Positions 12,846 through 60,371 of a stretch of DNA of 64,000 nucleotides are shown here, in pieces. The DNA comes from Schlesneria sp. DSM 10557 (lineage in GTDB: Bacteria > Planctomycetota > Planctomycetia > Planctomycetales > Planctomycetaceae): NCBI RefSeq assembly GCF_041860085.1, contig NZ_CP124747.1:2108001-2172000 (forward strand), in the 5' to 3' direction. The first letter of the stretch is position 1. Every line of letters begins with the position of its first letter. Under the pieces are notes generated by a model. The model ran no database searches, had not been told where the DNA came from, and was given only the letters and a program-made list of their open reading frames with translations. The position numbers and the translations under genes are program-made.

Positions 12846-13150
12846 CTTCGCACCTGCTTTATTCACATGGAGATTCAAGATGAGACGCCACTTTGCTACG
12901 GGGTCCGTTGTGGGAACTGTGCAAGAATTTGCGTTTGCTATTCGATACCTCGACCATCCCGCAGGAACAAGTCTGTAGGACGCTCGACAGAGAGGCCTCG
13001 ATCCCACAGGCACCGAAGAATCGAGGCCATGTTCGTCCGACCTGGTACGGTGTAGCTGGGCAGGGGGGACCGTCCTGCCTGGGTCCTTCGCTCCGGCGCT
13101 TATCACGGTCGTGGAGCAGGGGGTCCATTCGTTCCGGACGCCACTACCGA
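12846..13150. other. Intergenic region upstream of the PQQ-dehydrogenase gene
   Basis: About 300 bp between the end of the small exported protein gene and the start of the PQQ-dehydrogenase gene on the same strand. An imperfect GC-rich hairpin is visible around 13059-13079. Nothing else is recognisable. Confidence 0.4.
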
Positions 13151-22575: not shown

Positions 22576-23210
22576 CAGTAAACATCCTTTCCGCACGCAA
22601 TCGCAGCGGCGACAGGTGTGCGCAAAGACGATCTGGAGGGCGAGGATCGCACGAGTCTCAACACGAGACTGCTTCGCGAAAAGCCGCTCAGATTCGTATT
22701 AATTGAAGAAGCTGGGAAACAGACGGAGATAGTCTCAGACAGGATCGGCAGGGGTATAAATTCTGAGCCCGGTTCTGTCGAGACCGACTTGCCCGGACTT
22801 GATCCCGTGCAGCGGGGTTTTCGCAAAGGCTTTTATTTCAGTCACTTTTTTCACCGGGCATCCGCAGATTCTGCCGGAGCCACGCCCCGTTTGAAGCCTG
22901 ACGGAGCGATTCGTCCGTCGCCAGGACTGCGTTGCCGCGAAGGTTTTTGATTCGGTCTGCAAGCGGTCGACGCTGAGTGGCTCGCCCACCCGCATTCTCG
23001 GCTCAATAACCGAGGCCTGCGGCTCTTCACCGCTTTGAAATCTAAACGCAAGCCATTTTGAGCAAATGAGTTAACAGCGACACCCCGCAGATCACGCAAT
23101 CAGATTATGTCGCGCTTTCCTGCAAAGTCCTGCCTCCCACGCGGATCCTCGCATGGAGCGCAAGAGCAATACCCAAGATCATTGCGACGCACGATTCTCA
23201 GTCCAGAATC
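22576..23210. other. Intergenic region
   Basis: About 635 bp between two minus-strand genes. It should contain the promoter of the beta-barrel/beta-helix-gpsA transcript. No RNA gene or strong hairpin was recognised. Confidence 0.45.
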
Positions 23211-27300: not shown

Positions 27301-29445
27301 TGTCCCCTTACGATGCTCGTCGAGTCGTTCCAATTCTTCTGCGAGTCGTTCTGCCCGTTGTGCAAGCCGGGACAGTTCCGCCAGGTTCTGCTCCAGCTTG
27401 TTCAGTTCGTTCAAATGTCGGCCGAGTGTCTGCAACTTTTTGTCGGCAGCTCCCAGGCGGTCGATTGCTTGCGCGATGGGTTCGAGCTGGTCCCGGGCGG
27501 GCTTATCATGGGCCTGTTGCAGCTTCTCGAAGGCCACCTGTAAATCCTCAGCGGCAATCTGGTCCGTCGCGTCAGCCAGTTCCGACGTCATCAGCCGCTC
27601 GGCGAGACGATCCCCCAGATCCTGCAGCTTGTCGAGCAGCGCATTCTGTTCGTTCTGCAGGGAGTCAAGCTGTTCATTTTTGTCAGTCGGGTCGTCCCGC
27701 CCGAGCGCCTCTCGCTCGGTCTGTTGATGCAGCTGCGTCATTGCATCTTTCACATCTCCCAGATCCGCGCGCAACTGGACCAACTGATCGTCCATTTGCT
27801 GGATTTCCGTTGCCAGTTCCTGATCCGGAAGCTGCGGAAGACTCGTGTTGACCATCAGAGTACGGCGAGCTGACCAGGTGACCTGCGGTCCGGCTTCAGT
27901 CTGATTATCCGCTGCACGAATGCGATACGTGACGATCTGACCACCGGTTAAGTTGAATCGCGTCAAGTCGATCGCAAACGAGTGAGCCAGTGGCAGGGGG
28001 GTCAGTTGATCATCTGCCACCTTCTGGATTTCCTCGATCCCAGTCGAAGCCTCGACGTACAACTCGACAGCCGATAGACCAAAGTCATCATTAATTTCGG
28101 CGCGCTGCTCATACAGTTCGTCAGGCCGGACAAATACGGGATGGTCCGGGCCACTCAGTCGCAAAGTCGGGGGTTCATCCGGCGTCACGAAGAGCGATCG
28201 AGCCAGGTCTCGATTCTGAAGTCCCGACGAATTTGAGGCGAGAATCGAGATCGCGCCGGAAACACGCGCCATCACTGCTGCTGTACCGCGCGTCCGGTCG
28301 GCAGACAGCGTGAGGGGAATCAGATCCTCGACCTCTGAAGCATCTCGAGGGGGAGCGACGGGGGATGAGGCATCTGGAAGGGACTTTGGCCACTGCAATC
28401 GGGCTTCAACGACGGGTTCACTGAACTCCACCGAGACCAACACCTGACTTGCTTCCTGGATTCGGACTTCAGGCGGCACACTGTTGAGCGACCGGGCTGG
28501 CAGACCGGTGTAGGGGGGTGGTTCGATTTCCATCTGAAACCGCGTCATGACGGGGGGATCGGCCACGACGACGCGATGCATCCCCGTCCGGGCTCCATCC
28601 GATGTCACGTCAAAACTCAGCGACTGCTGAACTCGAGGTAACGTTGTGACGAAGGTCTCCGTCTGTGTATCCCAGACGAATCGACGCTGATCGGATCCGT
28701 TCCGCTCGTCACGCCAGTTCAGCCTGAGCGATGAAAATTTCTCGGGATTAACGATCAAGCCATTGTGACGCGGAGTCACTTTGACGTGGATCGGCACATC
28801 CGATCCACGAGCAACAACCTGATCCCCTTCGACCACGTTCAGGATCCACCGGGACCCCCACGAAAAATTTCCCCACGGCGCGAAAAATCGACTGAGGAGC
28901 AATCCGTAAGCGTCGGCATTCCACACGAATGGCGCCATCAGCAGCACCACCGCGATGGCCGCAATCAAAGCGGCTCGCAGGGGTCCCTGATGGAACGAGA
29001 TCTGGTCGATGGAAAGATGTTTGAACGCTTTCACCGTTTGCCGCGCGAGCAGATCCTGCATCAACCTGGATGCCCCGGGAGCCAGCTCGGTCCCGTCACT
29101 TCCCCTTAGTTCGACGAGAGATGTCAATCTCTCCCGCAGTTCCGGAAACTGCTGTTCCACCACGGCTGCCAGCGAGGCAAAGGAAACGGGAGTCCACATC
29201 GGGCGAAGGACGCCTCGCCAGATCAGCACCACCGCCAGTACGACCCAGCCCCCCAGTAGCACCCCGCGGATTGTTCCGCTTAACCCCAGCCAGGCATCCA
29301 GCACCACGACACCAGCGAGATAAAGAGCCATCCCCACGATCAGACGGCTCACGCCACGAATGAACGCCGCATCCCGAAGCTGCTTGTCGAGACCAAGCAA
29401 CTGCTGTTCAATCTGGGTCGGGATGCCGGGGGCGACTGCGGACAT
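24307..29445 (-). CDS. Giant DUF4175-like membrane protein with coiled coils and low-complexity C-terminus
   Basis: 1712-aa protein. Two membrane segments near the N-terminus (about residues 34-53 and 60-78) and a third at about 157-175 frame a cytosolic helical part. A beta-rich region follows (about 190-560; SLRLNWRDERNG, MEIEPPPYTGLPARSLN), as in DUF4175 proteins. The rest is coiled coil (Gln/Leu/Glu-rich heptads, about 590-1000) and a very long Ser/Gly/Glu/Pro/Gln/Lys-rich disordered stretch. A short ordered end (GQLEVELQQHARQNWGRLPGQLRTEILQG) resembles the C-terminal signature of the planctomycete family. Start 29445 has GGAG upstream; 35 further residues up to 29550 are unlikely. Function unknown. 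Confidence 0.78.
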   Translation of the reverse strand: MSAVAPGIPTQIEQQLLGLDKQLRDAAFIRGVSRLIVGMALYLAGVVVLDAWLGLSGTIRGVLLGGWVVLAVVLIWRGVLRPMWTPVSFASLAAVVEQQFPELRERLTSLVELRGSDGTELAPGASRLMQDLLARQTVKAFKHLSIDQISFHQGPLRAALIAAIAVVLLMAPFVWNADAYGLLLSRFFAPWGNFSWGSRWILNVVEGDQVVARGSDVPIHVKVTPRHNGLIVNPEKFSSLRLNWRDERNGSDQRRFVWDTQTETFVTTLPRVQQSLSFDVTSDGARTGMHRVVVADPPVMTRFQMEIEPPPYTGLPARSLNSVPPEVRIQEASQVLVSVEFSEPVVEARLQWPKSLPDASSPVAPPRDASEVEDLIPLTLSADRTRGTAAVMARVSGAISILASNSSGLQNRDLARSLFVTPDEPPTLRLSGPDHPVFVRPDELYEQRAEINDDFGLSAVELYVEASTGIEEIQKVADDQLTPLPLAHSFAIDLTRFNLTGGQIVTYRIRAADNQTEAGPQVTWSARRTLMVNTSLPQLPDQELATEIQQMDDQLVQLRADLGDVKDAMTQLHQQTEREALGRDDPTDKNEQLDSLQNEQNALLDKLQDLGDRLAERLMTSELADATDQIAAEDLQVAFEKLQQAHDKPARDQLEPIAQAIDRLGAADKKLQTLGRHLNELNKLEQNLAELSRLAQRAERLAEELERLDEHRKGTDNRADATASDETARPQVEELAKRPELTQPADPADSSRDEEPQTVASAQKSPPATVPDDQGHEGESVPADQEVRHVDLEVLQKLRDEGEQLSKRMDELLKNHPELLEAARRDKQERLNQLAQQARQLAQVQDQLAHAMKQEADVATGDSPQTKPHAAPATDSASDAEPTGEDQANQQPRANDDASADRASLETGSEPQSSPARPQTSASDNPKGTPSPNRVEAATGPQGAPEGQTPGDDVPESKQDRDSESGQTPGADATHEAESNEQGRSKPESREMDTGSAAGQQTRSSETGTSAPANEGAESKSAESGDEQAWRERGAKAMKQQEQITRAATEQAIGLLRETGADSPATKEAADFARQAELARQQAQGGELAAAAETARRAETAADATREQLNPDGQSPTPQSRQAEQLAEQQREMARELEELAKSPEAVRGARIEAQRRATAAAQQLSRELAETTETLKSAPLKGPDTREVAEAGDKARRATEQAEAAMRKAENAQAQKDRSASAQAAAEATEKLNEAANEVKPTPPRSPGVTPVPEQVGAKVAEATRQIKLAQMKLSQEKASSSSPDGKKAGQEPPPGKDPAASAKESQAKPSDKQEESSRDQSQQQAKAEKSQMAAEKSPASSASKAGQKNSPQEKSAGQQPQKSSSKSDGSDGTEGSGKGGMNGEGDGGSGQSPGGEGMGAGKPGGPPSSSALQSSSESSGKVGAKGARDEGMKGEDGSDSGQSQGNEGKAGEKPGDSPSSSSPKSPSESSASQAEGAVEGGSAPTAEGPASGKESPAAPSETVPEQSQSKPGSEESHNSDSSPQGDETDSPIRGEGQDSSNPPSEAGSMKDPETNKAEDEEDSPQKQAAASNESSEVESAASETEGPSQLAGAAERFRQFAKLLRSEEGARRNSKQKGRSRNDAPSARSPSNEPAEPSGNGGEGATPGGTTEGVDLGQLEVELQQHARQNWGRLPGQLRTEILQGAGKKSHPEYADRIKSYFEQITRPAK

Positions 29446-29781
29446 GGCTACTCCGAGCCTGTTCTGGCCTGAAAGGGAGAATAACTGGAAGCGGACGCGT
29501 TCGACGCGCTGCGATGGAGATTCCTCAGACGGATTGGACTTTGCTTCCAATATCTAAGTCGAAAAGGCTGAACAGCTTAAGACCCGCAGTACGATTTGCG
29601 TGACGCTGCCTTTTCATGAGAAAACAGAAGCAACGGTGTAGACAATTACCCAATATCTGATCGGCAATTCGAGTTTTTTGCCGATTCAGCGTATTCTATG
29701 CCGAACAAGATGAGAAATGACAGTACCTGTTTTAAAAACACAAGGCTGCTGCGACCTGCGTCGGATGAAGAAGGGATTTTG
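29446..29781. other. Divergent intergenic region with hairpin
   Basis: Shared upstream region of the DUF4175-like gene and the ABC ATPase gene. TCGGCAA (29661-29667) and TTGCCGA (29678-29684) form a hairpin with a T-rich loop, 97 bp before the ATPase start. It could be an operator or a leader structure. No clear promoter boxes. Confidence 0.4.
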
Positions 29782-41126: not shown

Positions 41127-43355
41127 ATGAAGGATCGAACACCTCGGGCGTCTTGGATGTCTGAGAAATTCTGGCGTAAGAATCGGCTGGCTCATAGCCT
41201 GGCACTCCTCAGTGTCGTGGCTTTAGCCGCTACCGGAACCTTCGCCGTTGAAGATGCGGCGAACGTCGCTGGCACGGGATTGAGCGGGATTTTTCCTTCC
41301 ACTCCACCCGATGATCTCACTGAAGAACAGTTCGCCAAACTGGATGGCAACTGGGCCGAATGGTCGAAGGGGGCCTCGGATGCGGTGGCCAACTTCTATG
41401 CAAAACTGGAAGCATCTGACGCCGCGGCCCAACGTGATGCTCTGGGCGTTCTGAAGGTCAAGCAGGACGTGATGCGACGGGCACTGGATGATTCATCCTA
41501 CCGTTCGCTCCACAGCCCGCTGACCGCTCTCAATAACAGCTTGAAGCTGCGAATCGATCTCGCCGAAGCCGCGCTCGACACGCTGGACATCGACGGCCAC
41601 AAGCTCGCCGGAGCGAAGACCCGTGCGCGTGCAAATCAGTTGCTCTCGTCGATTCAATCACTCGAGAGCTATCTGGGCACCATCGGCAACGGATCGTTGT
41701 GGCTTCCTTACTTCAATATTCCTGAACTGAAGGGCGCCTTGCAGGCCGATCAGGAAGGATCATTGCCACTCGCCGCGGCACTGGAAGCGCAGTCGAAGCT
41801 GAAGACTCGTGATCACGTGCTGGATGCAACTCAGCGTGAATTCACGACTCGTTCACCGTTCCAGTCATTCGCCACTTCGCTCGACCAATACATCTCGTCG
41901 GCATCGTGGACCGATCCCGTCGCAGCAGGACAGAAACTGCGAGCCGAGCTGAAGAATCTTTCCGACGCACTCGACACCTACATCTCAACCGGTGAAAAAG
42001 CTGGCGAACTGCGGGACGCATTTGCTCGAGCCCGTTATGTCGCCCCGGATGGCGGCGACCGACTGGCGAACTCGCTGCAAAGCCGTCTGTTCAACTACAA
42101 CCTGCGGGTGCTGGTGACCGAAGCGTTCCTGAACCGCATCATGTCTGACAGCCGAACGGTCCAGGGTGCCGTTCGTGACTTCATCCTGGGTGCACAGGTA
42201 AATGGCTGCCAGGTGACCAATACCACCGTTAATGTGGACCTGCTTCCAAGCAGCACCACGGCTCGGTTCGCCTTGCGATTGAACGGAAACATTCAGTCCA
42301 ATACGGCCGGTGTCACTCCTCAGGCAACTGTCTACACGGCAGGTAATCACACGTTTGCGGCCACGAAGGAAGTCAACTTCGACGGCTACCGCTTCATGAC
42401 GTCGCCTGCAACGATTGGTGTGAATCCGCACAACACCACGACCGGGATCAATACCAAATTCTCTGGAATTCCTATTCTCGGACGAATCGCACAGGGAATT
42501 GCATCACAAGCTGTAGAAGAGAAAAGAGGCGAAGCGGAAGCGATCGCAGCCAGCCGAGTTCAAGATGGTGTGCTGCCTGCCTTCAACCAGGAAGTCGATT
42601 CCAACTTCGCTCAGCAGACCGACAAGCTGAATCGCGAAGTCTACACCGGTCTTCGCAATGCCGGAGTTTTTCCTGACACCTTCACCTACCAGTCGACAGA
42701 TCAGATGTTGACGCTGAATGCTCGGGTGATGTCCCCACGTCAGATCGGTGCAGACTTGCCGGAAGGCCGCCTGCTGACCGCGACCGGAATCACCGCACTG
42801 ATTCATGAAACCGCGATCAATAACGGTGTCGACAAGATGGGTATCGCCGGTCAGACGCTGAACGAAGAACAGCTGAAAGCGAAACTGGAATCGTTCATCA
42901 GCACCATCCTGAACCGCCCCTACCACTTGCCTGAACAGCCCAAGGCTCCTGTCGAGGAAGACGAAGAGACACAAGATCTGAACGCGATCATTTTCGCTCC
43001 TGTGGATCCGATCCGCGTCCGAGTCGCTGATGATGAAATCAATATCATCATTCGGGCAGGTTTCAAGCAGGATGGAAAAGAAGACATCCCCATGCGGGAA
43101 ATTTCGGTTCCCATCTCGCTGGCTGCTCAAGGGGGCCAGATCATCGCCAAGGCGGGTAGTGTCATCGTGGCAGCCGCTGAAGGAGAAGGGGGCGGAGTCG
43201 CGATCAACGCTGTCGTCCGCAAGAAGATTCAGTCGATGCTGCCTGACCGCGTGCTGGACGGAAAAGTCGAGATCCAGACACCCACCAAGATCGTGGTAGC
43301 CTACGTAACACAGTTGCTGCTCGTCGACGGCTGGATTTCCGTCGGAATCAACTGA
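41127..43355 (+). CDS. Large exported protein of unknown function
   Basis: 742-aa protein with a signal peptide (after a basic N-terminus, HSLALLSVVALAATGTFA). Residues about 50-300 are mainly helical (LEASDAAAQRDALGVLKVKQDVMRRALDD and similar). The second half mixes beta-sheet (VNVDLLPSSTTARFALRLNGN, VRVADDEINIIIRAGFKQD) with helices and ends in a conserved-looking hydrophobic strand (IVVAYVTQLLLVDGWISVGI). I know of no named domain; the style is that of planctomycete-specific envelope proteins. GGAG lies nine bases before the ATG. A strong terminator follows 31 bp after the stop, so the gene is probably monocistronic. Confidence 0.7.
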   Translation: MKDRTPRASWMSEKFWRKNRLAHSLALLSVVALAATGTFAVEDAANVAGTGLSGIFPSTPPDDLTEEQFAKLDGNWAEWSKGASDAVANFYAKLEASDAAAQRDALGVLKVKQDVMRRALDDSSYRSLHSPLTALNNSLKLRIDLAEAALDTLDIDGHKLAGAKTRARANQLLSSIQSLESYLGTIGNGSLWLPYFNIPELKGALQADQEGSLPLAAALEAQSKLKTRDHVLDATQREFTTRSPFQSFATSLDQYISSASWTDPVAAGQKLRAELKNLSDALDTYISTGEKAGELRDAFARARYVAPDGGDRLANSLQSRLFNYNLRVLVTEAFLNRIMSDSRTVQGAVRDFILGAQVNGCQVTNTTVNVDLLPSSTTARFALRLNGNIQSNTAGVTPQATVYTAGNHTFAATKEVNFDGYRFMTSPATIGVNPHNTTTGINTKFSGIPILGRIAQGIASQAVEEKRGEAEAIAASRVQDGVLPAFNQEVDSNFAQQTDKLNREVYTGLRNAGVFPDTFTYQSTDQMLTLNARVMSPRQIGADLPEGRLLTATGITALIHETAINNGVDKMGIAGQTLNEEQLKAKLESFISTILNRPYHLPEQPKAPVEEDEETQDLNAIIFAPVDPIRVRVADDEINIIIRAGFKQDGKEDIPMREISVPISLAAQGGQIIAKAGSVIVAAAEGEGGGVAINAVVRKKIQSMLPDRVLDGKVEIQTPTKIVVAYVTQLLLVDGWISVGIN

Positions 43356-49600: not shown

Positions 49601-50032
49601 AGTTGGATGCGTATCAGCGTTTGTCGTTTCGTCCTCTGCCGGGCCGCGGAACGTCGTTCTGTTGAATGAAGCCGAGACGGAACGCGCCCACTGAAAGTCA
49701 CGGTGAATTTCTGCGAGTCTCAGCACCGCCTGATCGAGTCTCAACCTATACGGACAGAACTGGGACTTCGAGTCGATTCAACTCAACCTTTTATTAGGTC
49801 CATCTGCAAGCACATTCAGTCTATTTTTCGTGCAATGAAGAATAGAACACAACGCGCAATTGAGCGGCATGGCAGTTGCCTCTACAAATCGCATCGGTGA
49901 ATTTGCCCGGAATCCGAATGATTTGCTCCGAAGGCAAGCGGTTTCTGCCTTAAGTTTAGGCGATATTGTTGGGATTCAACGAAAGCAGGGGCGAACGACG
50001 ACAATTTAGAGTCTCCAGCCGAAAGATGAGAA
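49601..50032. other. Upstream region of the ATP-grasp/alpha-E/transglutaminase cluster
   Basis: About 430 bp, AT-richer than the surroundings at 49780-49990, which suits a promoter for the following cluster. A weak hairpin (AAGGCA 49931-49936/TGCCTT 49946-49951) is visible. No gene. Confidence 0.45.
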
Positions 50033-51526
50033 ATGCTCGCTGCCACCGACCCCGCGCACAATCGAGTCCCGAAGGACGTCGCATTTCCCGACTACGATAC
50101 GGCTGGTTTCTACGATGAGATGTTTCTGGAGGGTGGGCAGCCTCGCCCCCGGGGGGAATTGCTGGCTTCGCGCCTCAAGGGGCTGACCGACGGTGAACTG
50201 ACCCGACGGCAGCGAGTCGCCGACCAGGCCCTGCTGAATATGGGGATCACGTTCAATGTCTATGGGCACGAAGCGGGCACCGAGAAGATCTGGCCCTTTG
50301 ATCTGATCCCCCGCATCATCGAAGGAGCCGAATGGAAGTTCATCGACGCGGGGTTGAAGCAGCGCATCCGCGCGTTGAATCGCTTTATCGACGACATCTA
50401 TCACGAGCAGACCATTGTTAAAGAGGGGATTTTTCCGGAGTACATGGTCACTTCGAGCCGGAACTTTCTGAAGCAGTGCGTTGGACTCAACCCACCCGGA
50501 GGAATCTGGTGTCACATTACAGGGACCGACCTTGTCCGTAATGCGGATGGGACGGTTTACGTTCTGGAAGACAACCTGCGATGTCCGTCGGGAGTTTCGT
50601 ATGTGCTCGAGAATCGCGAGGTCATGAAGCGGACGTTCCCGCAACTATTCAACGGGCTGTCGGTGATGCCAGTTGAGGACTACCCTGAACAGTTACTGAA
50701 GATGCTTCAGCACATCGCCCCCCCGACAACGGACGAACCAACCGTCGTCGTGCTGACCCCGGGAATTTATAACTCAGCCTATTTCGAGCACTGCTTTCTC
50801 GCACAGCAAATGGGCGTCGAACTGGTCCAGGGTCCCGATCTTGTCGTGACGAACGGTTTCGTCCATATGAGGACCACACGAGGCCTCGAACGTGTGGACG
50901 TCATCTACCGCCGGATCGACGACGAATTCCTCGACCCACTTTGCTTCCGTCCCGACTCGTGCCTGGGTGTCCCGGGGTTGATGGACGTCTACCGCGCCGG
51001 CCGTGTGGCGCTCGCCAATGCACCGGGGACCGGAATCGCCGACGACAAGGCGGTCTACGCCTATGTGCCTCAGATGATCAAGTATTATCTGGGCGAAGAG
51101 ATGCTGTTGCCGAACGTCCCGACATACCTTTGCGCCAACGACGACGACCGCAAATATGTGCTTGAGCACATTGCCGAGCTGGTGGTTAAACCGGCTAACG
51201 AATCAGGCGGGTATGGAATTCTTGTGGGTCCGCGAGCGTCGAGTGAGCAGTTGGCGAAGTATCGCGAGCTGATCTCCACAAATCCTCGTAACTACGTCGC
51301 ACAGCCAACACTGTCGCTTTCGCGCGTGCCAACCATCGTAGGAGATCATCTGGAAGGCCGACACGTCGATTTGCGACCCTACATTCTTTACGGCGAAGAC
51401 GTTTACATTCTGCCCGGGGGACTGACCCGGGTGGCGCTGGTGAAAGGATCACTGGTCGTCAATTCCTCGCAAGGAGGAGGCAGTAAAGATACATGGGTTC
51501 TGAAGAACGGAACGCCACGCGTTTGA
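50033..51526 (+). CDS. Circularly permuted ATP-grasp family protein
   Basis: 497-aa cytosolic protein of the circularly permuted ATP-grasp type-2 family (former DUF404/407). Motifs include [41 protein letters not shown] (the glutamate/asparagine-rich metal-ATP strand), [42 protein letters not shown] and [23 protein letters not shown]-grasp enzymes ligate an amino group to a carboxylate; the substrates for this class are unknown, and peptide or amino-acid conjugation is predicted in the literature. It heads a run of five plus-strand genes; the alpha-E gene follows after 30 bp. A second copy is fused to alpha-E at 56764-59340. Confidence 0.9.
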
Positions 51527-51556
51527 CGTTACGTCCTTCCCGAGAGATTACCAATC

Positions 51557-52609
51557 ATGTTGAGCCGTGTTGCCGATTCGATTTACTGGATGAGTCGCTA
51601 CGTGGAGCGAGCCGAGAACGTGGCTCGCTTCATCGATGTCAATTTGAATTTGTCGCTGGATGTCGGTCCTGAGATGGAACGGCACTGGGATCCGCTGATC
51701 TATACAACCGGCGACCACGCTGATTTCCAGAAGCGCTACCCCGAGGGAACGCAGCAGAACGTCATTCACTTTCTGACGTTTGATACCGAGAATCCCAACT
51801 CGATTCTCTGCTGCCTGCGAACGGCGCGCGAAAACGCACGGACCGTCCGTGACATGATCAGTTCCACGATGTGGGAAGAACTCAACAAGTTCTTTCTGCT
51901 TGTCAAAACCGCATCGCAGCCTCAAGTGCTGGGTTCACCCTTCGACTTTTTCGCCCAGATCAAACTATCGGCCTATACCCTCGACGGAGCGGTGCAGTCG
52001 ACGCTCTCGCATAACGAGGCATGGCACTTTCACCGGATGGGCCAACTGATTGAGCGCGCCGACAAGACCTCGCGTATTCTTGACGTGAAGTACTACCTGC
52101 TGCTGCCCCAGGTTTCCGATGTCGGGACGCAACTCGACACAAACCAGTGGTCCGCGCTATTGAAGTCAGCGAGTGCACTGGAAATGTATCGCAAGGCTCA
52201 CGGCCGGATTACTCCCCATCAGGTTGCAGACTTTCTGCTTCTCGACCGTGAGTTCCCTCGCGCAGTCCGGTTCTGTGTTGGTTCCGCCGAGCAGTCGCTT
52301 TTAACGATCACCGGTGGCTCGCGCGGCAACTTCAATAATCGCGCCGAACAATGTCTGGGTCGGCTACGAGCCGAACTCGACTACACGAATATCGAGGAAA
52401 TCTTTGCGACGGGACTGCATGAGTTTATCGATCAGTTCCAGGAAAAGTTGAACGGCGTGGGACTGGCCATCTCTGACACCTTCTTCTCAATACAACCCGA
52501 AGTCAAGCCGGTGCGAGCGGCCAAAAAGCCACTCGCGACCAGCGCAGCCTTACCGGCGACCAGCGTTCAGAAACAATCGATGGGTGGCCAGTCACAATCA
52601 CAGGGCTGA
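51557..52609 (+). CDS. Alpha-E domain protein
   Basis: 350-aa all-helical protein beginning MLSRVADSIYWMSRYVERAEN, the hallmark of the alpha-E (DUF403) family, with a second conserved stretch HFHRMGQLIERADKTSRILD. Family members are almost always encoded beside circularly permuted ATP-grasp and transglutaminase-like proteins; the arrangement here, 30 bp after such a gene, is typical. The activity is unknown. The last 40 residues are a low-complexity Ala/Gln/Ser-rich tail. The same domain recurs at the C-terminus of the 56764-59340 protein (from about residue 518). Confidence 0.92.
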   Translation: MLSRVADSIYWMSRYVERAENVARFIDVNLNLSLDVGPEMERHWDPLIYTTGDHADFQKRYPEGTQQNVIHFLTFDTENPNSILCCLRTARENARTVRDMISSTMWEELNKFFLLVKTASQPQVLGSPFDFFAQIKLSAYTLDGAVQSTLSHNEAWHFHRMGQLIERADKTSRILDVKYYLLLPQVSDVGTQLDTNQWSALLKSASALEMYRKAHGRITPHQVADFLLLDREFPRAVRFCVGSAEQSLLTITGGSRGNFNNRAEQCLGRLRAELDYTNIEEIFATGLHEFIDQFQEKLNGVGLAISDTFFSIQPEVKPVRAAKKPLATSAALPATSVQKQSMGGQSQSQG

Positions 52610-52962
52610 TCGGAGGGTCGGAGGAAGCAACCCTCCATTCGAATTCCCCTCGCAGCAGTAACGTCAACAAACATCCCTTAGTTAACCACTAAAGCCAAAT
52701 CAGAATCGTTTCCACCGTTCGCGATCAGCAGCACTGCAGCCACCGTTCGGTCGCCCCGACAGCCGCAACTGCCGGGAATGAAGCCCGATCCTGGACGTAT
52801 CGGTTGAGCCGATAAATCCGGCGGGTTTCCGATGAATCGAGCGACCGGACGAGTACTAATCCAACCCGACGTGCATCCGAAAACAGGGGCTCGAGAGCGG
52901 TCAAGAATTACCTGAACGCGACTTGAGACGGCGAACCTGAATTACTCCATAGAAGATCGACA
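52610..52962. other. Gap inside the ATP-grasp/transglutaminase cluster
   Basis: About 350 bp between two co-directional genes of the cluster, which may mean a second promoter. No hairpin with a T-run or other element was recognised. Confidence 0.45.
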
Positions 52963-55900
52963 ATGACTATTCGAGTTGCACTGCACCATAAGACGACTTA
53001 TTCCTATGACCGCCTCGTCAGTTTGTCACCTCAAGTGATCCGGCTGCGGCCTGCGCCTCACTGTCGCACACCAATCCTCAGTTATTCGCTCAAAGTACTG
53101 CCTGAAAAACAGTTTCTGAATTGGCAACAGGATCCTTACGGCAACTTTCTCGCCCGAGTGGTTTTTCCGGACAAGACGCGAGAACTTTCCGTCACGGTCG
53201 ATCTGATCGCTGACATGACGGTGATCAACCCGTTCGACTTTTTCCTCGAACCCGACGCGACAGAATTTCCATTCACTTACAGTCCCTCACTGCTGGCGCA
53301 ACTGCAGCCTTATCTGGTCACCGATCCCCTGGGTCCGGAGATGGCGGCCTTCGTCGCAGGGGCCCCTCACGGAGCCGAGAAGACCAACAATTCCATCGTC
53401 GCTTTCAATCAGTACGTCCACCACGCGGTCAAGTACGTCATCCGACTGGAACCCGGTGTTCAGACCTGTGAAGAAACGCTCACCAGGCGAAGTGGGTCTT
53501 GCCGCGACTCGGCATGGCTGCTGGTCCAATTGCTGCGTCACTATGGATTGGCCGCCCGGTTCGTTTCGGGTTACCTGCTGCAGTTGAAGCCGGACGTCGC
53601 GTCTCTTGATGGACCGTCCGGGGCCGCTACCGACTTCACCGATCTGCACGCCTGGGCAGAAGTCTTCCTTCCCGGAGCAGGGTGGGTGGGACTCGATGCG
53701 ACATCAGGCCTGCTCGCCGGCGAAGGGCACATCCCGCTGGCTGCAACACCTGACCCACAATCTGCCTCACCGATCAATGGGGGTGTCGATAAGTGTGAAG
53801 TCGAGTTCTCTTTCGACATGTCGATCACTCGCATCCACGAAGATCCGCGTGTGACGAAGCCATACACGGACGAGCAGTGGGCCGATATTCAGCAGTTGGG
53901 AGAACACGTCGATCGCGAACTCTCGATGGGTCCCCGCTTCTTCACCATGGGTGGTGAACCGACGTTTGTCTCGATCGATCATCGGGACGAGCCTGAATGG
54001 AACACTGCGGCACTGGGAGCGACCAAACGTCGGCTGGCAGGAACCCTGTTTCGTCGCCTGGCCAATCGGTTCGCAAATGGTCCCTTGCTGCATTTCGGAC
54101 AGGGGAAGTGGTACCCCGGCGAGTCCCTGCCGCGCTGGGCGCTGGGTTGCTACTGGCGAAAGGATACCGAACCCGTCTGGACTCGTCCTGATCTCATCGC
54201 CGAGGACGACAAGGACTACGGCTACGGAGAGAAAGAAGCTCGCGAATTTATCTCGATGCTTGCGCAGCAACTGCAGGTCCAGATTGAGCATATCCGGCCG
54301 GGTTATGAAGACACCTGGTATTACTTGTGGAAAGCGAGAAAGCTGCCGACAAACGTCGATCCGTTCGATTCCCGGCTCGACAATGAAGAAGAAAGAGCAC
54401 GACTGGCGCGCGTCTTTGAACAGGGACTCGCCAGTGTTGTGGGCTATGTGCTGCCGGTCATGCCCAACGAGGACGAGAACGCCCTGACAAGTTGGGTCAG
54501 CGGACCATGGCACCTGCGCCAGGACCGGATGTTCCTGGTCCCGGGTGATTCACCCATGGGGTATCGCCTGCCACTCGATTCGCTCCCGTGGCTGCGTCCT
54601 GAAGATCGGCCGCTGATCGTCGAAGCCGACCCCACCGCTCCACGTGGTGAACTTCCGCACTTCTCCCGAGTCGCTCCGCAGACAAACGAAGTCCATCCCA
54701 ACCTGTTTGAACTCGGTTCACAGCCGGGGAACGGCGATGTTCCGCGGGTGCTGCAGGCCCGGGGCAGCGTATTGGAGTACGTCAAACGATCATTCGGTGA
54801 ACTGGAACCGGTCGCCTCGACCGTCGCAGATCATTCTGTGGAGACGCAGACAAGTGCGTCCACCCCTACCACGAACAGTCGGTCGCATTCCAACGGAACG
54901 GCCGGTGACTCATCCCCCGCCTCGCATGTCGTTCGCAACGGTTCGCACTCCAGGGACGCGCACCCGCTTTCGTCGGCAGCGAGCTTGCATCAGAATGAAC
55001 CAATCGTTCGAACGGCGCTCTGCGTTGAGCCGCGCGGGGGCGTCATCCATATTTTCATGCCACCCGTGGAACGAATCGAGCAATACCTCGACCTTGTCTC
55101 GGCGATTGAAGCCACGGCCGCAGAACTTTCGATGCCCGTCCGAATCGAAGGCTATCCCCCCCCTTATGACTATCGTGTCGATCATTTCAAGGTGACGCCG
55201 GATCCGGGTGTCATCGAGGTCAATTTGCAGCCCTCGCGCACCTGGAAGGAACTGGTGACGAATACCACCGTCCTGTACGAAGAGGCGCATCTCTCGCGAT
55301 TAAGCTCCGAGAAATTCATGCTCGACGGGCGTCACACGGGCACCGGTGGCGGAAACCATATCGTGATGGGAGGGCCGTCTCCCGCTCAAAGTCCGTTCCT
55401 CCGACGCCCCGATCTCTTGCGCAGTCTGGTAACGTACTGGAATAACCGTCCCTCGTTGTCATACCTCTTCTCGGGACTGTTCATCGGCCCGACCAGTCAA
55501 GCTCCGCGACTTGATGAAGCGCGGCACGAGAACCTTTATGAACTGGAGATTGCGTGTTCGCAGTTACCAGAAGGGGAAAGCTGTCCTCCGTGGCTCGTCG
55601 ACCGTGTCTTCCGACATCTGCTGACGGACCTGACGGGAAACACGCATCGTGCCGAATTCTGTATCGACAAACTGTATTCGCCCGACAGTGCGACAGGTCG
55701 ACTTGGTCTTGTGGAAATGCGTGGGTTTGAGATGCCACCGCATGAACGGATGAGCCTCACGCAGCAGTTGCTGGTGCGGGCGCTGATCGCCCGTTTCTGG
55801 CACAAGCCCTACCGTGAGACACTCGTCCGTTGGGGGACCACGCTGCACGATCGTTTCATGCTGCCCCATTTCGTCGAGCAGGATTTCCATGAAGTCCTGG

Positions 55901-56505
55901 CGGATCTTTGCGACGCAGGATTCCGTTTCGAAGAGTCCTGGTTCGCCCCCCATGTCGAGTTCCGGTTCCCTCTGATTGGTGAAATCACGATCTCGGGAGT
56001 GCAGATCGAATTGCGTCAGGCGATCGAACCCTGGCACGTCCTGGGTGAGGAATTTGGCGGTACCGGCGCCGCACGCTACGTCGATTCGTCAGTGGATCGC
56101 GTCCAGGTAAAAGTCCGTGGCCTGACGGATCCCCGTTTTGTCGTGACGTGCAATGGCCGGCGTGTACCGCTGCATCCGACTGGTACGAAAGGTGAGTTCG
56201 TTGCGGGGGTTCGCTTCCGCGCATGGCAACCACCGTCGTGTCTGCATCCGACGATTGGCGTCCATTCGCCACTCGTCTTCGATCTGCTCGACCGGTGGAA
56301 CAAGCGGTCGCTTGGCGGTTGCACCTGGCATGTTTCGCATCCGGGAGGACGAAGCTACGCCACGTTCCCGGTGAACGCCTACGAAGCCGAAAGCCGGCGC
56401 GTGGCGAGATTCTTCCATCTCGGTCATACTCCCGGACAGCAAACGATTCCTGAAGACGAAAAGAATCGCGACTATCCGTACACATTGGATATGCGACGGA
56501 CGTAA
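52963..56505 (+). CDS. Transglutaminase-like/DUF2126 protein
   Basis: 1180-aa cytosolic protein. Residues 1 to about 95 are the transglutaminase N-terminal beta domain (MTIRVALHHKTTYSYDR). The core holds the papain-like triad Cys180 (GSCRDSAW), His229 (DLHAWAEVF) and Asp245 (VGLDATSG). From about residue 310 (GPRFFTMGGEPTFVSID) the DUF2126 region runs to about 1110, with GKWYPGESLPRWALGCYWR, GRHTGTGGGNHIVMGGP and HRAEFCIDKLYSPD as clear signatures. A Ser/Thr/His-rich linker (about 620-680) interrupts it. The triad suggests amide-bond hydrolysis or transfer, opposing or editing the ATP-grasp ligases around it. Role inferred. Confidence 0.9.
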   Translation: MTIRVALHHKTTYSYDRLVSLSPQVIRLRPAPHCRTPILSYSLKVLPEKQFLNWQQDPYGNFLARVVFPDKTRELSVTVDLIADMTVINPFDFFLEPDATEFPFTYSPSLLAQLQPYLVTDPLGPEMAAFVAGAPHGAEKTNNSIVAFNQYVHHAVKYVIRLEPGVQTCEETLTRRSGSCRDSAWLLVQLLRHYGLAARFVSGYLLQLKPDVASLDGPSGAATDFTDLHAWAEVFLPGAGWVGLDATSGLLAGEGHIPLAATPDPQSASPINGGVDKCEVEFSFDMSITRIHEDPRVTKPYTDEQWADIQQLGEHVDRELSMGPRFFTMGGEPTFVSIDHRDEPEWNTAALGATKRRLAGTLFRRLANRFANGPLLHFGQGKWYPGESLPRWALGCYWRKDTEPVWTRPDLIAEDDKDYGYGEKEAREFISMLAQQLQVQIEHIRPGYEDTWYYLWKARKLPTNVDPFDSRLDNEEERARLARVFEQGLASVVGYVLPVMPNEDENALTSWVSGPWHLRQDRMFLVPGDSPMGYRLPLDSLPWLRPEDRPLIVEADPTAPRGELPHFSRVAPQTNEVHPNLFELGSQPGNGDVPRVLQARGSVLEYVKRSFGELEPVASTVADHSVETQTSASTPTTNSRSHSNGTAGDSSPASHVVRNGSHSRDAHPLSSAASLHQNEPIVRTALCVEPRGGVIHIFMPPVERIEQYLDLVSAIEATAAELSMPVRIEGYPPPYDYRVDHFKVTPDPGVIEVNLQPSRTWKELVTNTTVLYEEAHLSRLSSEKFMLDGRHTGTGGGNHIVMGGPSPAQSPFLRRPDLLRSLVTYWNNRPSLSYLFSGLFIGPTSQAPRLDEARHENLYELEIACSQLPEGESCPPWLVDRVFRHLLTDLTGNTHRAEFCIDKLYSPDSATGRLGLVEMRGFEMPPHERMSLTQQLLVRALIARFWHKPYRETLVRWGTTLHDRFMLPHFVEQDFHEVLADLCDAGFRFEESWFAPHVEFRFPLIGEITISGVQIELRQAIEPWHVLGEEFGGTGAARYVDSSVDRVQVKVRGLTDPRFVVTCNGRRVPLHPTGTKGEFVAGVRFRAWQPPSCLHPTIGVHSPLVFDLLDRWNKRSLGGCTWHVSHPGGRSYATFPVNAYEAESRRVARFFHLGHTPGQQTIPEDEKNRDYPYTLDMRRT

Positions 56506-56763
56506 TCGGCGGTCACGGATTTCGCCGACGGAATGAATGAGCGGCAGCATGCTGCGATGTTGACAGCGGGAGCGGCCAGGGAGAATCTTCCCGGTCACCA
56601 CTCGCCCGAAACGAAAAACAGAGCGGTCCTGGGGAATGTCCCGCGACGGACAATTGGTAGATCAGACAACCGAGATCAGACAACACAGTCGCCACGCGTT
56701 GGTCGTTTGCTCCGTATTCGGAACAGACCAGGAACGACTGAGCCGAGAGGAGCCAGGACAATC

Positions 56764-59340
56764 ATGATTGACAGCACCGGTGCGGTGAGTGCTCATCCCG
56801 CCGGCGACATCGTATCGCGATATGCCCCACACAGTCAGTATTTTGATGAAATGATCGGGCCGGATGGGGGAGTACGCCCTGCCTGGTCGCGGCTCGTCCA
56901 GACCATGAACGATGCGGGTGCCGAGGGGCTCAATCAACGGGGGGACCACCTTCGTCATCTGCTGCGGGAAAATGGAGTCACCTACAACGTCTACGGTGCG
57001 TCGAAAGACCTTGAACGTCCCTGGGAGCTGGACCCCATTCCGCTGATGCTTCCGATTGCGGAATGGAATCCACTTGCCGACGCGATCCAGCAGCGGGCTA
57101 CCTTACTCAATCGAATCCTGGCCGACGTGTATGGGCCCCAGGAACTCGTGAGATCTGGTGTTCTGCCGCCGAACGCCTTGTTTGAACATCCGGGCTACCT
57201 GCTGCCATGCATTAATATTCGCCCTCCTGAGGGAATCTTCCTGCACTGGTACGCGGCTCAGTTAGCCCGCGATGCGACAGGACGTTGGATGGCACTGGGA
57301 GACCGTTCGCAGGGTCCGTCCGGGGCCGGATATGTGGTCGAGAATCGCGTTGTTGTCTCTCGCACATTACCAGAGAAATTTCAGAGCCTGAACGTCGTCC
57401 GCCTGGCGTCCTACTTCATCGCGCTGCAAAACACACTTGCACGACTGGCGCGTAACCATCGGGACAATCCGCGAGTGGTAGTATTGTCGCCAGGCCCCAG
57501 AAGTTCTCGCTATTTTGAAGATGTCTATCTGGCCCGCTATCTGGGTTATACGCTGGTCGAAGGGGGCGACCTGACGGTTCGCGGGGATCGCGTTTATCTG
57601 AAAACCCTCGGGGGGCTGCTGGCCGTCGACGTCATCTTTCGACGGATGGGTGACGCCCGTTGCGATCCACTCGAACTTCGTCCGGATTCGCGCGAGGGGA
57701 TTCCGGGACTGATGCAGGTCGTTCGTGACGGACAGGTTGTGGTCGCCAATGCGTTAGGCAGTGGCTTTCTCGAAGCACCACTGATGCAGGCTTATTTACC
57801 CGCCGCCTGCCGGTTCCTGCTGGGTGAAGAACTCAAACTTCCCTCAATGCCGACCTGGTGGTGCGGTCGACCCGACGACCTGAAGTACGTCGAAGCCAAT
57901 CTCGAGCGACTCGTCGTACGCCCCGCCTACCACCACCACAATGTGAAGGTCTACATCGGTGCCAACCTGGCGTACGACGAGCGGGCCCGTCTCATTGCCG
58001 AGATGCGGGCTCGTCCGAGTCAATTCGTTGCACAGGAACCTCTGGCAGGATCGACCGCACCGGTGCTCATCGGAGAAAACCTGCAACCCTGGCACGTCAC
58101 CCTGCGCGCCTTCGCCGTGGCAACTGAAGGCAAGTACCAGGTCATGCCGGGGGGCCTTTCGCGGGTGGCAACACGCTCAGAAACGCTCTCAGAATCGATG
58201 GCCTCTGGCCAGAGAAGCAAAGACGTGTGGGTGCTGGCCGATACTCCTGTCGAGCCGGTGACATTGCTTCGTCCCAAGCAGACTGCACTCGAACTGCGTC
58301 GCAGCGCGAACGACTTGCCAAGCCGCGCTGCCGACCATCTGTTCTGGCTGGGACGCTCCATCGAACGAACCGAAGCGCAGGTCCGGCATGTCCGCTGCGT
58401 TGTCGCCCGGACCACCAGCGAGCTTCAACCCGCGACCCTGTCTGATCTGTACCAACTGGTCCTTGCCATCGACGAACCGGGTGAATCACCACTGGCTCCC
58501 TTTGACAGTGAAGCAGAAGGGCAGCAGCAAGCCCTGATCGAATCCGTCTGGGCCTTCCTGCATGATCCTTATCGAAAAGGGGGGTTGTTCAGCACCATCG
58601 AAGCGACCCAACGAACGGCTTCGGTCGTACGAGACAGAATCTCTGTCGATGGCTGGCGAATTATCAATCAAATGAAGTTCCCTCAGCCTCGCAGCTCGTC
58701 TGCACCACGAACGTCCTCGGGTCTGACGGATGCGCTTGCACCGCTGAACCAACTGCTGACCTCATTGTCGGCGTTCAGCGGCCTCTGCAACGACAGTATG
58801 ACCCGGGGTCCCGGTTGGCGTTTTCTGGATATCGGGCGCAGGATCGAGCGAGCGTTGCAAACTTTGCGAGTCATCCGGGGGTTGCTCGTCGATGGACAGG
58901 TCGATGTCCTGCCTCGACTGGAAGCGATGCTCGAAATCGCGGACAGTTCAATGACCTACCGCTACCGCTATCTGACAACCCTGCAACTGGCTCCGGTGCT
59001 GGATCTGGTACTCGCGGATGAATCGAATCCTCGTGCCGTCGGCTTCCAGCTCATGGCCCTGTCGAAGCACGTGCGCAGTCTCTCCAGGGAGGAATCCGAG
59101 ATGGTCCGCACGGCGGAACAGAAGCTCGTCCTTTCCGCTCAGGCGTCGCTCCGTCTGGCGGACGTGGAATCGTTCTGCACCGTCAATGGCTCAGGGGATC
59201 GACGACAGCTCGATAAGTTTCTGGCATTACTCGCTTCCGATCTTCGTTCTCTTTCCGATAGCATCACCCATACCTACCTCGCCCACACGGTCGACTCGAG
59301 ACAACTCGAGGCTCAACTTCAGATCCCACGCCGCGCGTGA
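56764..59340 (+). CDS. ATP-grasp and alpha-E fusion protein
   Basis: 858-aa protein. Residues 1 to about 490 are a second circularly permuted ATP-grasp domain (YNVYGASKDLERPWELDPIP, GAGYVVENRVVVSRTLPE, VDVIFRRMGDARCDPLELRP). From about residue 518 an alpha-E domain follows (SRAADHLFWLGRSIERTEAQ). The fusion supports a direct physical partnership of the two protein families, encoded separately at 50033-52609. The start at 56764 is preferred because GAGGAG and AGGA lie just upstream; the frame is open to 56533, but those residues are not family-like. A gap of 258 bp separates it from the DUF2126 gene. Confidence 0.9.
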   Translation: MIDSTGAVSAHPAGDIVSRYAPHSQYFDEMIGPDGGVRPAWSRLVQTMNDAGAEGLNQRGDHLRHLLRENGVTYNVYGASKDLERPWELDPIPLMLPIAEWNPLADAIQQRATLLNRILADVYGPQELVRSGVLPPNALFEHPGYLLPCINIRPPEGIFLHWYAAQLARDATGRWMALGDRSQGPSGAGYVVENRVVVSRTLPEKFQSLNVVRLASYFIALQNTLARLARNHRDNPRVVVLSPGPRSSRYFEDVYLARYLGYTLVEGGDLTVRGDRVYLKTLGGLLAVDVIFRRMGDARCDPLELRPDSREGIPGLMQVVRDGQVVVANALGSGFLEAPLMQAYLPAACRFLLGEELKLPSMPTWWCGRPDDLKYVEANLERLVVRPAYHHHNVKVYIGANLAYDERARLIAEMRARPSQFVAQEPLAGSTAPVLIGENLQPWHVTLRAFAVATEGKYQVMPGGLSRVATRSETLSESMASGQRSKDVWVLADTPVEPVTLLRPKQTALELRRSANDLPSRAADHLFWLGRSIERTEAQVRHVRCVVARTTSELQPATLSDLYQLVLAIDEPGESPLAPFDSEAEGQQQALIESVWAFLHDPYRKGGLFSTIEATQRTASVVRDRISVDGWRIINQMKFPQPRSSSAPRTSSGLTDALAPLNQLLTSLSAFSGLCNDSMTRGPGWRFLDIGRRIERALQTLRVIRGLLVDGQVDVLPRLEAMLEIADSSMTYRYRYLTTLQLAPVLDLVLADESNPRAVGFQLMALSKHVRSLSREESEMVRTAEQKLVLSAQASLRLADVESFCTVNGSGDRRQLDKFLALLASDLRSLSDSITHTYLAHTVDSRQLEAQLQIPRRA

Positions 59341-59429
59341 ATCTCGTTAACAGGATTGAGGATTCCGTCACCGTCCGGTTCAGCCAGCCTGTATCACACA
59401 GTTGAAACCGGTACGACGGCAAATGTCCC

Positions 59430-60317
59430 ATGCAATACACCGTTCAACATACGACGACGTATACCTATTCAAGCCCAGTATCGATCTGCCAGAACGATGT
59501 CCATCTGACACCGCGGCATACCCCGTTTCAGACGAGTACCGGATTCCAACTGGAAGTCTCGCCTGAGCCGATGCTGCTGCGGTCGTGGGTCGATTCCTTT
59601 GGTAACGAGGTGTGGTATTTTTCACTCGAAGAACCGCATCAGGAATTGAAGGTCACTGCACGCAGCAAAGTCAGCCTGGCCCGACGACCCTTGCCGGAAC
59701 CTTCGCAGACGACAAACTGGGAAGTCGTGCGAGATCAGTTGCTGGCAGCCGACGCGCCCGAATCCCGGATGATTTCTCAATTTCGCTTTGAATCTCCGTA
59801 CATTCAGTATCTGAACGAAGCTCGCGAATATGCCCTCGTCAGCTTTACTCCGGGTCGGCCGCTGCTGGAAGCGGCCCTCGAACTGACATCCCGTATTTAC
59901 AATGACTTTGAATACGCTCCGACAACAACCAGCATCAGCACGCCGACAAAGGAAGTGCTGGAGAAACGGCGTGGTGTCTGCCAGGACTTTGCTCATCTGC
60001 AGATCACGGCGCTGCGCAGTCTGGGTCTTGCCGCTCGATACGTGAGTGGATACCTCGTGACGGCGCCTCCTCCCGGGAAACCCCGACTGGTGGGTGCCGA
60101 CGCCTCACATGCATGGCTGTCCGTCTATTGCCCCAGTGACGGTTGGATCGACCTGGACCCCACAAACAACGTCATTCCCCAGGAACGTCACGTGACAATC
60201 GGCTGGGGTCGCGACTACGGTGACGTCTGCCCGATTCAGGGTGTTCTGATTGGCGGAGGTTCGCACGTCCTGTCCGTTTCGGTGGACGTGGCGCCAGTGC
60301 TGATTGACGAAACTTAG
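59430..60317 (+). CDS. Transglutaminase-like cysteine peptidase-fold protein
   Basis: 295-aa protein with the N-terminal transglutaminase beta domain (MQYTVQHTTTYTYSSPV) and the catalytic core: Cys184 (RRGVCQDFAHL), His227 (ASHAWLSVY) and Asp243 (IDLDPTNN). All three residues are intact. Stand-alone proteins of this kind accompany ATP-grasp/alpha-E genes. It lacks a signal peptide, so it probably acts in the cytoplasm on the product of the ligases. It ends the cluster; a strong terminator follows 24 bp after its stop. Confidence 0.92.
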   Translation: MQYTVQHTTTYTYSSPVSICQNDVHLTPRHTPFQTSTGFQLEVSPEPMLLRSWVDSFGNEVWYFSLEEPHQELKVTARSKVSLARRPLPEPSQTTNWEVVRDQLLAADAPESRMISQFRFESPYIQYLNEAREYALVSFTPGRPLLEAALELTSRIYNDFEYAPTTTSISTPTKEVLEKRRGVCQDFAHLQITALRSLGLAARYVSGYLVTAPPPGKPRLVGADASHAWLSVYCPSDGWIDLDPTNNVIPQERHVTIGWGRDYGDVCPIQGVLIGGGSHVLSVSVDVAPVLIDET

Positions 60318-60341: not shown

Positions 60342-60371
60342 CCTCGACTTTCGAGTCGAGGTTTGTTTTTT
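60342..60371 (+). terminator. Intrinsic terminator of the ATP-grasp/transglutaminase cluster
   Basis: CCTCGACT (60342-60349), a TTCG tetraloop and AGTCGAGG (60354-60361) are followed by TTTGTTTTTT. This is a textbook Rho-independent terminator. It lies only 43 bp before the thrS start, so the thrS promoter must overlap or follow it, or thrS depends on read-through. Confidence 0.9.

Follow-up and report, generated by a model that had tools for sequence, protein, structure and literature searches.

Bacterial gene sets that encode circularly permuted (CP) ATP-grasp, alpha-E and transglutaminase-fold proteins were reportedly predicted by Iyer et al. in 2009 to act in peptide tagging or modification. 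The DUF2126 domain present in some of these sets had already been published as a ligase-fold domain in 2008 (PMC2588565). In one operon that includes the proteasome-like protein Anbu, the ATP-grasp is described as releasing phosphate from ATP, with no complex detected (PMC6376114), and in Burkholderia cenocepacia the genes I35_5080-5083, encoding DUF404/407, DUF403, transglutaminase and large transglutaminase proteins, are reported as common targets of NtrC and sigma-54, with expression 6- to 9-fold lower in an ntrC mutant (PMC5491218). The papers considered give no chemistry for the family. Here, we analyse a five-gene cluster of this kind in a stretch of 64,000 nucleotides (nt), hereafter the window, of Schlesneria sp. 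DSM 10557, whose genome is a single contig of 7.07 Mb (NZ_CP124747.1). The cluster belongs to a known, biochemically unsolved kind, and the parts worth following are its second ATP-grasp, probably a dead but conserved twin of the first, and a sigma-54-like promoter site before the first gene.

The five open reading frames (ORFs) and their ends, as given in an initial annotation of this DNA, were confirmed, and their families were borne out by Pfam matches that far exceed the cut-off in all five. In window positions, the features are:

49865..49880, plus strand: sigma-54 (-24/-12) promoter-like site, 168 nt 5' of the gene 1 start codon
50033..51526, plus strand: gene 1, circularly permuted ATP-grasp (CP_ATPgrasp_2, 570 bits), single copy, 16-residue signature intact
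51557..52609, plus strand: gene 2, alpha-E protein (Alpha-E, 349 bits), two related halves
52963..56505, plus strand: gene 3, whole, Bact_transglu_N + Transglut_core + DUF2126
52963..53757, plus strand: gene 3, N-terminal part, transglutaminase-fold domain with C180/H229/D245
53758..56505, plus strand: gene 3, C-terminal part, DUF2126 (PF09899, 1349 bits), probably glutamine-synthetase-like (carboxylate-amine ligase)
56533..59340, plus strand: gene 4, whole, fusion of CP_ATPgrasp_2 (474 bits) and Alpha-E (227 bits)
56803..58257, plus strand: gene 4, ATP-grasp part, conserved, probable pseudo-ATP-grasp
58258..59340, plus strand: gene 4, C-terminal alpha-E part, Pfam Alpha-E match
59430..60317, plus strand: gene 5, Bact_transglu_N + Transglut_core, triad C184/H227/D243
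60342..60361, plus strand: intrinsic-terminator-like hairpin, then TTTGTTTTTT, between gene 5 and thrS (consensus match only)

The gaps between genes 1-2, 2-3, 3-4 and 4-5 measure 30, 353, 27 and 89 nt, respectively. CP_ATPgrasp_2, Alpha-E, transglutaminase and DUF2126 domains are all encoded together in the cluster, in an order conserved in other loci, and the published amidoligase/transglutaminase context that had been invoked for it agrees with this family content. CP_ATPgrasp_2 and Alpha-E each have two matches in the 7.07-Mb genome, all of them in the cluster.

The ATP-grasp domains of genes 1 and 4

The initial annotation had counted two ATP-grasps. Only one of them looks active when 36 distinct single are compared with 59 distinct fused ATP-grasps at 16 positions invariant in the singles, a choice of positions that in itself favours the contrast. 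Rows of less than 400 residues (less than 380 in one early alignment), with X or below 150 bits were dropped, as were exact duplicates; one of the 59 fused rows (L003) ends at a contig edge, so that its alpha-E part is unseen. The signature, D R E N D D K K G G Y G N G G G, is complete in every one of the 36 singles and in none of the 59 fused copies, each of which retains 1 to 6 of the 16 residues. N181, D338, K339, Y394 and N477 are retained in 0/59, G392 in 1, E179 in 2, D337 in 3 and K386 in 23, while R169 (57) and G481 (54) are mostly kept. In gene 4 itself, relative to gene 1, E179 has become G, N181 R, DDK 337-339 EAP, K386 R, GGYG 392-395 HNVK and N477 S. From ATP-grasp enzymology, we take the lost residues to be metal- and phosphate-binding ones. 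Among 26 further single copies the signature is intact in 25, the exception being a Y to S change in L186. The family's conserved residues are present in at least one ATP-grasp of the cluster, as gene 1 has them and gene 4 does not; the ATP-binding residues have thus not been lost from both.

In a tree of the 36 + 59 sequences, with all columns and rows, single and fused copies are separated by one branch with a Shimodaira-Hasegawa-like approximate likelihood ratio (SH-aLRT) of 100, and the same one-branch split, again at SH-aLRT 100, is obtained after removing the signature blocks and three long rows (36 + 56). Because the split persists without the signature blocks, it is independent of the chosen positions, and it neither proves nor rules out a single origin of the fusion. 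A recent ATP-grasp duplication was rejected on this ground, as the 36 singles all fall on one side of the branch and the 59 fused copies all on the other. The fused copies span Planctomycetota, Verrucomicrobiota and Pseudomonadota, with L133 from Acidobacteriota and L130 from Actinomycetota; L130 has a very long branch and is included in the all-rows tree only. The closest named relatives of gene 4 are from Schlesneria, with 80-84% identity in the best segment.

Despite its lost signature, the fused domain is conserved. Its ratio of nonsynonymous to synonymous substitution (dN/dS) is 0.126 and 0.187 in the two unsaturated comparisons (three others were saturated), and that of gene 1 is 0.068 and 0.069 where dS could be measured. 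The fused copies also keep near-invariant residues of their own, many of them common to gene 1 (D90, R111, D121, R169, E252, D269, D301, N329, R448 and D486 in gene 1 numbering), while the stretch aligned with GGYG varies among them. A degenerating pseudogene is ruled out for the window copy by its open frame and by the low dN/dS in the two measurable comparisons. In the G024 relative, the fusion gene is interrupted by stops.

These data suggest that the ATP-grasp of gene 4 is probably a conserved, non-catalytic paralogue under purifying selection, and that gene 1 would be the only ATP-grasp of the cluster that looks active. Among the papers listed by a literature search, which did not cover Iyer et al. 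2009, none concerned an inactive or pseudo-ATP-grasp of this kind, and this is not proof of absence.

Sigma-54-like sites and a possible link to nitrogen

A GG-N10-GC element of the sigma-54 type, overlooked in the initial annotation, lies before gene 1 and is aligned in Schlesneria relatives. Up to 500 nt 5' of each gene were scanned, upstream regions of less than 250 nt being dropped, with a score and a threshold set after about seven sites had been seen. Of the 38 regions upstream of gene 1, 34 hold a site above threshold, against a mean of 4.4 and a maximum of 10 over 60 shuffles; for gene 3 the count is 14 of 55 (shuffles 4.6). The counts for alpha-E (0/35, shuffles 2.6), the fusion (5/57, shuffles 5.05) and gene 5 (7/55, shuffles 5.3) are within the shuffle range, and those for thrS and UDG are 0/5 and 0/4. 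After removal of near-copies, sites are found before gene 1 in 29/33 loci (reversed 5, reverse complement 4), gene 3 in 12/44 (5 and 6), the fusion in 3/44 (16 and 2), gene 5 in 5/45 (6 and 4) and alpha-E in 0/23 (3 and 0).

Because the scheme had been drawn up after those first sites were seen, a second set of 26 gene-1-type loci was fetched and scanned with the threshold fixed. Ten of its 25 usable loci carry a site (reversed 2, reverse complement 1), where a Markov expectation of 0.074 per locus predicts about 2 (binomial 5e-6). There is, in statistical terms, an excess of sigma-54-like sites before gene 1. Before gene 3, a site occurs in 12 of 27 loci without gene 2 directly upstream, in 1 of 24 with it and in 1 of 3 undetermined ones (Fisher 0.001; window excluded, near-copies kept), a rule-based count that replaces an earlier, incomplete split made by hand (12/19 versus 2/35). 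As rpoN is present in the window genome and a -24/-12 site precedes gene 1, the cluster qualifies as a candidate member of a sigma-54 regulon, in which the site would act as promoter.

A protein read by eye as GroEL also has a sigma-54-like site about 156 nt upstream of it (L167; G000:C1:6253017-6253031), in line with the chaperones reported to be under sigma-54 in planctomycetes.

The literature on nitrogen is read here with PP_2687 and PP_2688 of Pseudomonas putida taken to be alpha-E and ATP-grasp proteins, and COG3484 taken to be Anbu. Under nitrogen limitation, wild-type P. putida is reported to induce PP_2686, a transglutaminase, 12.6-fold, PP_2687 11.0-fold and PP_2688 14.7-fold, which the authors ascribe to NtrBC (PMC7801951). 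The proteasome-type protease COG3484 is described as enriched for sigma-54 in Proteobacteria (PMC12316311), in the main text of which the COG numbers taken for the remaining cluster genes were not found, and in marine metagenomes an association of DUF403/404/407 with domains of urea metabolism is reported (PMC3597751). By analogy, the cluster may have a nitrogen role in the window organism as well.

Other domains, gene order and Anbu in related genomes

The only relative of gene 1 in the PDB is 3n6x (E 2e-175), named putative glutathionylspermidine synthase, a name that is an annotation and not an assay. The transglutaminase triads are conserved: the Cys-His-Asp of gene 5, noted as intact from the start, is kept in 45, 44 and 44 of 45 homologues for C184, H227 and D243 (one row gapped), and gene 3 likewise has an intact triad, C180/H229/D245, kept in 41/41 homologues. 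The alpha-E protein of gene 2 is internally duplicated, as its halves align by hhalign with a probability of 97.8 (E 7e-13; at most 0.7 in ten shuffled-column control runs), and an ER pair occurs in each half (E17/R18 and E166/R167). Single alpha-E copies keep E17 in 58/58, R18 in 58/58, E166 in 60/60 and R167 in 59/60 cases, and the fused copies in 52, 56, 51 and 54 of 56, respectively; by these residues, the alpha-E domain of gene 4 reads as sound. The alpha-E model is all-helical (predicted local distance difference test, pLDDT, 83.9), and its comparison with the PDB gave nothing better than E 0.75.

For DUF2126, the sequence profile had no match in the PDB. Among the 50 Foldseek matches listed for its model, 18 are chains of the glutamine synthetase (GS) family, from 7 entries including 4hpp and 8wwv (E 0.066-0.34), and superoxide dismutase-like chains match another part of the model with higher probability; the eight top rows, all chains of one toxin (probability at most 0.14, TM about 0.06), were rejected as spurious. 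The DUF2126 domain may have a GS-like fold, the model agreeing weakly with the published statement.

The initial annotation had singled out the doubled and fused set without Anbu; it is indeed present here, but is not peculiar to this genome, since sets built in the same way are widespread. Planctomycetes, Verrucomicrobia and Proteobacteria all have loci with the order ATP-grasp, alpha-E, transglutaminase-DUF2126, ATP-grasp/alpha-E fusion, transglutaminase, which makes the cluster a member of the published kind; examples include Verrucomicrobia (L072, L076), Pirellulales (L068), an Enterobacter plasmid and, with one gene inserted, Caballeronia plasmids. Members of the family were found in planctomycetes, Verrucomicrobia, Proteobacteria, Actinomycetota and Acidobacteriota. 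In Granulicella and Azospirillum, genes 3-5 occur without the gene 1-2 pair within the fetched flanks, and the fetched part of an Acidithiobacillus plasmid has genes for Anbu, DUF2126, ATP-grasp and alpha-E and none for the fusion. The Enterobacter case, E. roggenkampii NZ_CP116251.1, is a complete five-gene operon (L125:4153-13344) on a 90-kb IncFII plasmid, with IS26 and arsC in the stretch shown; the operon can therefore be plasmid-borne in Enterobacteriaceae.

A panel of 59 related genomes, 33 of which hold DUF2126, was used for comparison. The fusion is the next recognised gene 3' of DUF2126 in 32/33 loci (window, L003, L024-L054; exception L051). In many DUF2126 loci, genes 1-2 lie directly 5' of genes 3-5 on the same strand, whereas four loci (L043, L047, L049, L050) have them beside genes 3-5 on the opposite strand. 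Other genomes carry them at a separate place, as in G044, where they adjoin Anbu (L118). On the basis of this varied placement, genes 1-2 count as one module (A) and genes 3-5 as another (B). Rows read by eye show a gene-1-type and a long-frame CP_ATPgrasp in each of the 33 DUF2126 genomes (in G003 the gene-1 type is only partial), and gene-1 types without the long-frame copy in eight genomes. This is as expected if a dead copy needs a live one. In the annotated neighbourhoods compared, by eye and without a control, no common transporter or tailoring gene was found.

No Anbu was found in the whole window genome by two Anbu queries that did find it in relatives, in agreement with the absence of Anbu near the cluster noted initially. 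The Noviherbaspirillum query (L075) detected Anbu in five relatives (E 1.3e-25 or better) and the planctomycete query in 9/59 genomes, the window genome being among neither; its single proteasome-family protein found reads as HslV. A first search with PF00227 gave 5 genomes and missed 4 later found by the planctomycete query (G058 weakly), and its count was set aside for that reason in favour of that of the planctomycete query. By the latter, Anbu occurs in 3/33 genomes with and 6/26 without DUF2126 (Fisher p 0.16); as it was not found in 30/33 DUF2126 genomes, its lack is usual for the DUF2126 version in this class. ATP-grasp/alpha-E/Anbu triplets occur in planctomycetes G021 and G048 (L186:925-4512 and L176:3-3208), their Anbu being missed by the Pfam proteasome model. 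In a further planctomycete arrangement (L170, L171, L173, L185, L187-L191), ATP-grasp and alpha-E genes are accompanied by one for a diverged transglutaminase (31-36% to gene 5), and no Anbu was found in the approximately 6 kb fetched; this arrangement occurs in the DUF2126-less genomes G010, G037, G042, G046, G050 and G052.

Several candidate components were rejected. thrS lies 3' of gene 5 only in Schlesneria relatives among the loci examined, and the terminator-like site intervenes, a hairpin of 8 pairs with the longest stem among 13 sites (shuffles average 9.9 sites). The idea of a conserved tag peptide encoded in the 353 nt that separate genes 2 and 3 was dropped, as one alignment read by eye, which is not a small-ORF test, showed no conservation. 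Peptidase_Mx was discarded as a general partner, being found in 17/59 relatives and not in the window genome; it is the family guessed for an annotated "putative zinc-binding metallopeptidase" that lies between genes 2 and 3 in Caballeronia.

Elsewhere in the window, two large ORFs of 1747 and 742 aa (24307-29550 and 41127-43355) have no Pfam match at E 0.001. A 1131-aa protein (19201-22596) has beta-helix matches and an inverse-autotransporter beta-domain match, and a 1030-aa protein (10110-13202) has sorbosone-dehydrogenase, PKD and CBM6 matches, with a cytochrome c match below its cut-off.

Possible functions and the closest known systems

The reading that we favour, while stopping somewhat short of giving it an even chance, is an Anbu-independent, sigma-54-driven cycle of amide ligation and hydrolysis that serves nitrogen economy and includes gene 4 as a dead partner. 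The operon would be transcribed from the sigma-54 promoter; gene 1, with the only intact ATP-grasp site, would use ATP to activate a carboxylate for ligation to an amine, as the GS-like DUF2126 domain of gene 3 may likewise do, and the papain-type transglutaminase-fold domains of genes 3 and 5 would hydrolyse or transfer such amides. Gene 4, with its presumably dead ATP-grasp and its apparently sound alpha-E domain, could be a scaffold or allosteric partner, which would probably pair with the gene 1/gene 2 ligase and link that ligase with the module of genes 3 and 5. When nitrogen is limiting, such a cycle would probably serve to capture, store or release amine nitrogen. Catalysis, the partner role of gene 4, promoter function and the nitrogen role are inferred. 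A wider version, which we advance only tentatively, is that an adaptor made of pseudo-ATP-grasp and alpha-E domains, which may have arisen once and is kept in at least five phyla, couples an ATP-grasp/alpha-E ligase that elsewhere works with Anbu to a GS-like/transglutaminase module under sigma-54, forming an Anbu-independent amide cycle for nitrogen starvation.

Several observations weigh against the amide cycle or parts of it. In P. putida, the proteasome-like PP_2685 is induced only 1.12-fold in the wild type, and an rpoN mutant still induces PP_2686-2688 14.2-, 16.0- and 19.6-fold, with urtA-D behaving alike (PMC7801951), so that the nitrogen response there appears not to depend on sigma-54. 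NtrB/NtrC are reported to be of limited presence in Planctomycetota, where chaperones are under sigma-54 (PMC12316311). The promoter signal has weaknesses of its own: the 16/44 sites in reversed fusion upstreams show that reversal is no neutral control, the genome-wide count of the exact pattern is 35, versus 27 for its reversed counterpart, and the second set is weaker, at 40%. Two of the hits in that set (L180, L181) are from the window genus and near-copies of sites already seen, leaving 8/23 without them, and 9 of the 10 are in DUF2126 genomes (9/14 versus 1/11 elsewhere, Fisher 0.012). Finally, the likeness of DUF2126 to GS was drawn here from a model of low confidence (pLDDT 60.6), and in G035 the contig with the fusion and gene 5 has no DUF2126.

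Among the alternatives, protein tagging is unlikely: the ligases would fix a peptide or amino acid onto proteins, and the transglutaminase-fold proteins would take it off again or cross-link. Tagging is the genome-context prediction quoted in PMC6376114 and PMC5666114, and papain-type hydrolase domains do adjoin ligase domains in the cluster; on the other hand, the DNA separating genes 2 and 3 differs in length from one relative to another with no conserved stretch seen (the same single alignment by eye), HslV is the only proteasome-family protein found, and no complex of YbAnbu, albeit from the Anbu version, with the proteins of its operon was detected (PMC6376114). Another unlikely reading is the synthesis of a small peptide-like or polyamine-conjugate metabolite, such as a glutathionylspermidine-like compound or a gamma-glutamyl-amine, with the transglutaminase-fold domains as amidases. 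A ligase together with a papain-type amidase is the logic of glutathionylspermidine synthetase/amidase, and both the name of 3n6x and the GS-family chains listed for DUF2126 (4hpp, 8wwv) point the same way, although that name carries the caveat given above and the annotated neighbourhoods share no transporter or tailoring gene, as judged by eye without a control.

It is quite improbable that the fused ATP-grasp is alive with a changed chemistry, binding another nucleotide or carrying out an ATP-free transfer: its own near-invariant residues and low dN/dS would fit, but the lost positions include the presumed metal- and phosphate-binding ones, and the variable GGYG-aligned stretch is unlike a re-purposed active site. 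It is very doubtful that the promoter signal arose from composition and shared ancestry, since, for all the small genome-wide difference from the reversed pattern, the scheme drawn up after the fact, the near-copies still in the sets and the induction that persists in the P. putida rpoN mutant (PMC7801951), the excess before gene 1 holds against shuffled, reversed and reverse-complement controls, in the redundancy-reduced set and in the fixed-threshold second set, and genes 2, 4 and 5 show none.

On the wider version of the amide cycle, a dead twin that controls a working ATP-grasp ligase would be a general principle in bacteria. If one ATP-grasp is non-catalytic, the choice of protein to assay changes and the proteins are better tested as a complex, while the sigma-54-type promoter, if working, points to growth conditions in which to seek substrate and product; together, the dead twin and the promoter make the long-open question of the family's chemistry directly testable.

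Compared with known systems, the cluster shares with glutathionylspermidine synthetase/amidase and with 3n6x the logic of a permuted ATP-grasp ligase plus a papain-type amidase, but no PDB sequence link to characterised GspS was found, the matches listed being 3n6x and one weak beta-aspartyl-peptidase. RimK/RimB and RloABC likewise pair an ATP-grasp protein with an opposing peptidase, and rlo also includes a transglutaminase-fold protein; as described there, however, the protease is retropepsin-like and the transglutaminase inactive, whereas both triads of the window cluster are intact (PMC12239564). The B. cenocepacia genes I35_5080-5083 have DUF404/407, DUF403 and two transglutaminases in common with it, although only four genes are named for it, versus five in the window cluster, whose sigma-54 link comes from the DNA sequence alone (PMC5491218). 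The four-gene Anbu operon of Noviherbaspirillum (L075) has an ATP-grasp 55% identical to gene 1 with the same intact signature, together with alpha-E and a transglutaminase; unlike the window cluster it has Anbu, and no DUF2126 or fusion was found in its locus. With the predicted peptide-modification system of CP ATP-grasp, alpha-E, transglutaminase and GS-like DUF2126 proteins, the cluster shares both families and linkage, and it differs in that no Anbu was found and in having a second, signature-less ATP-grasp fused to alpha-E.

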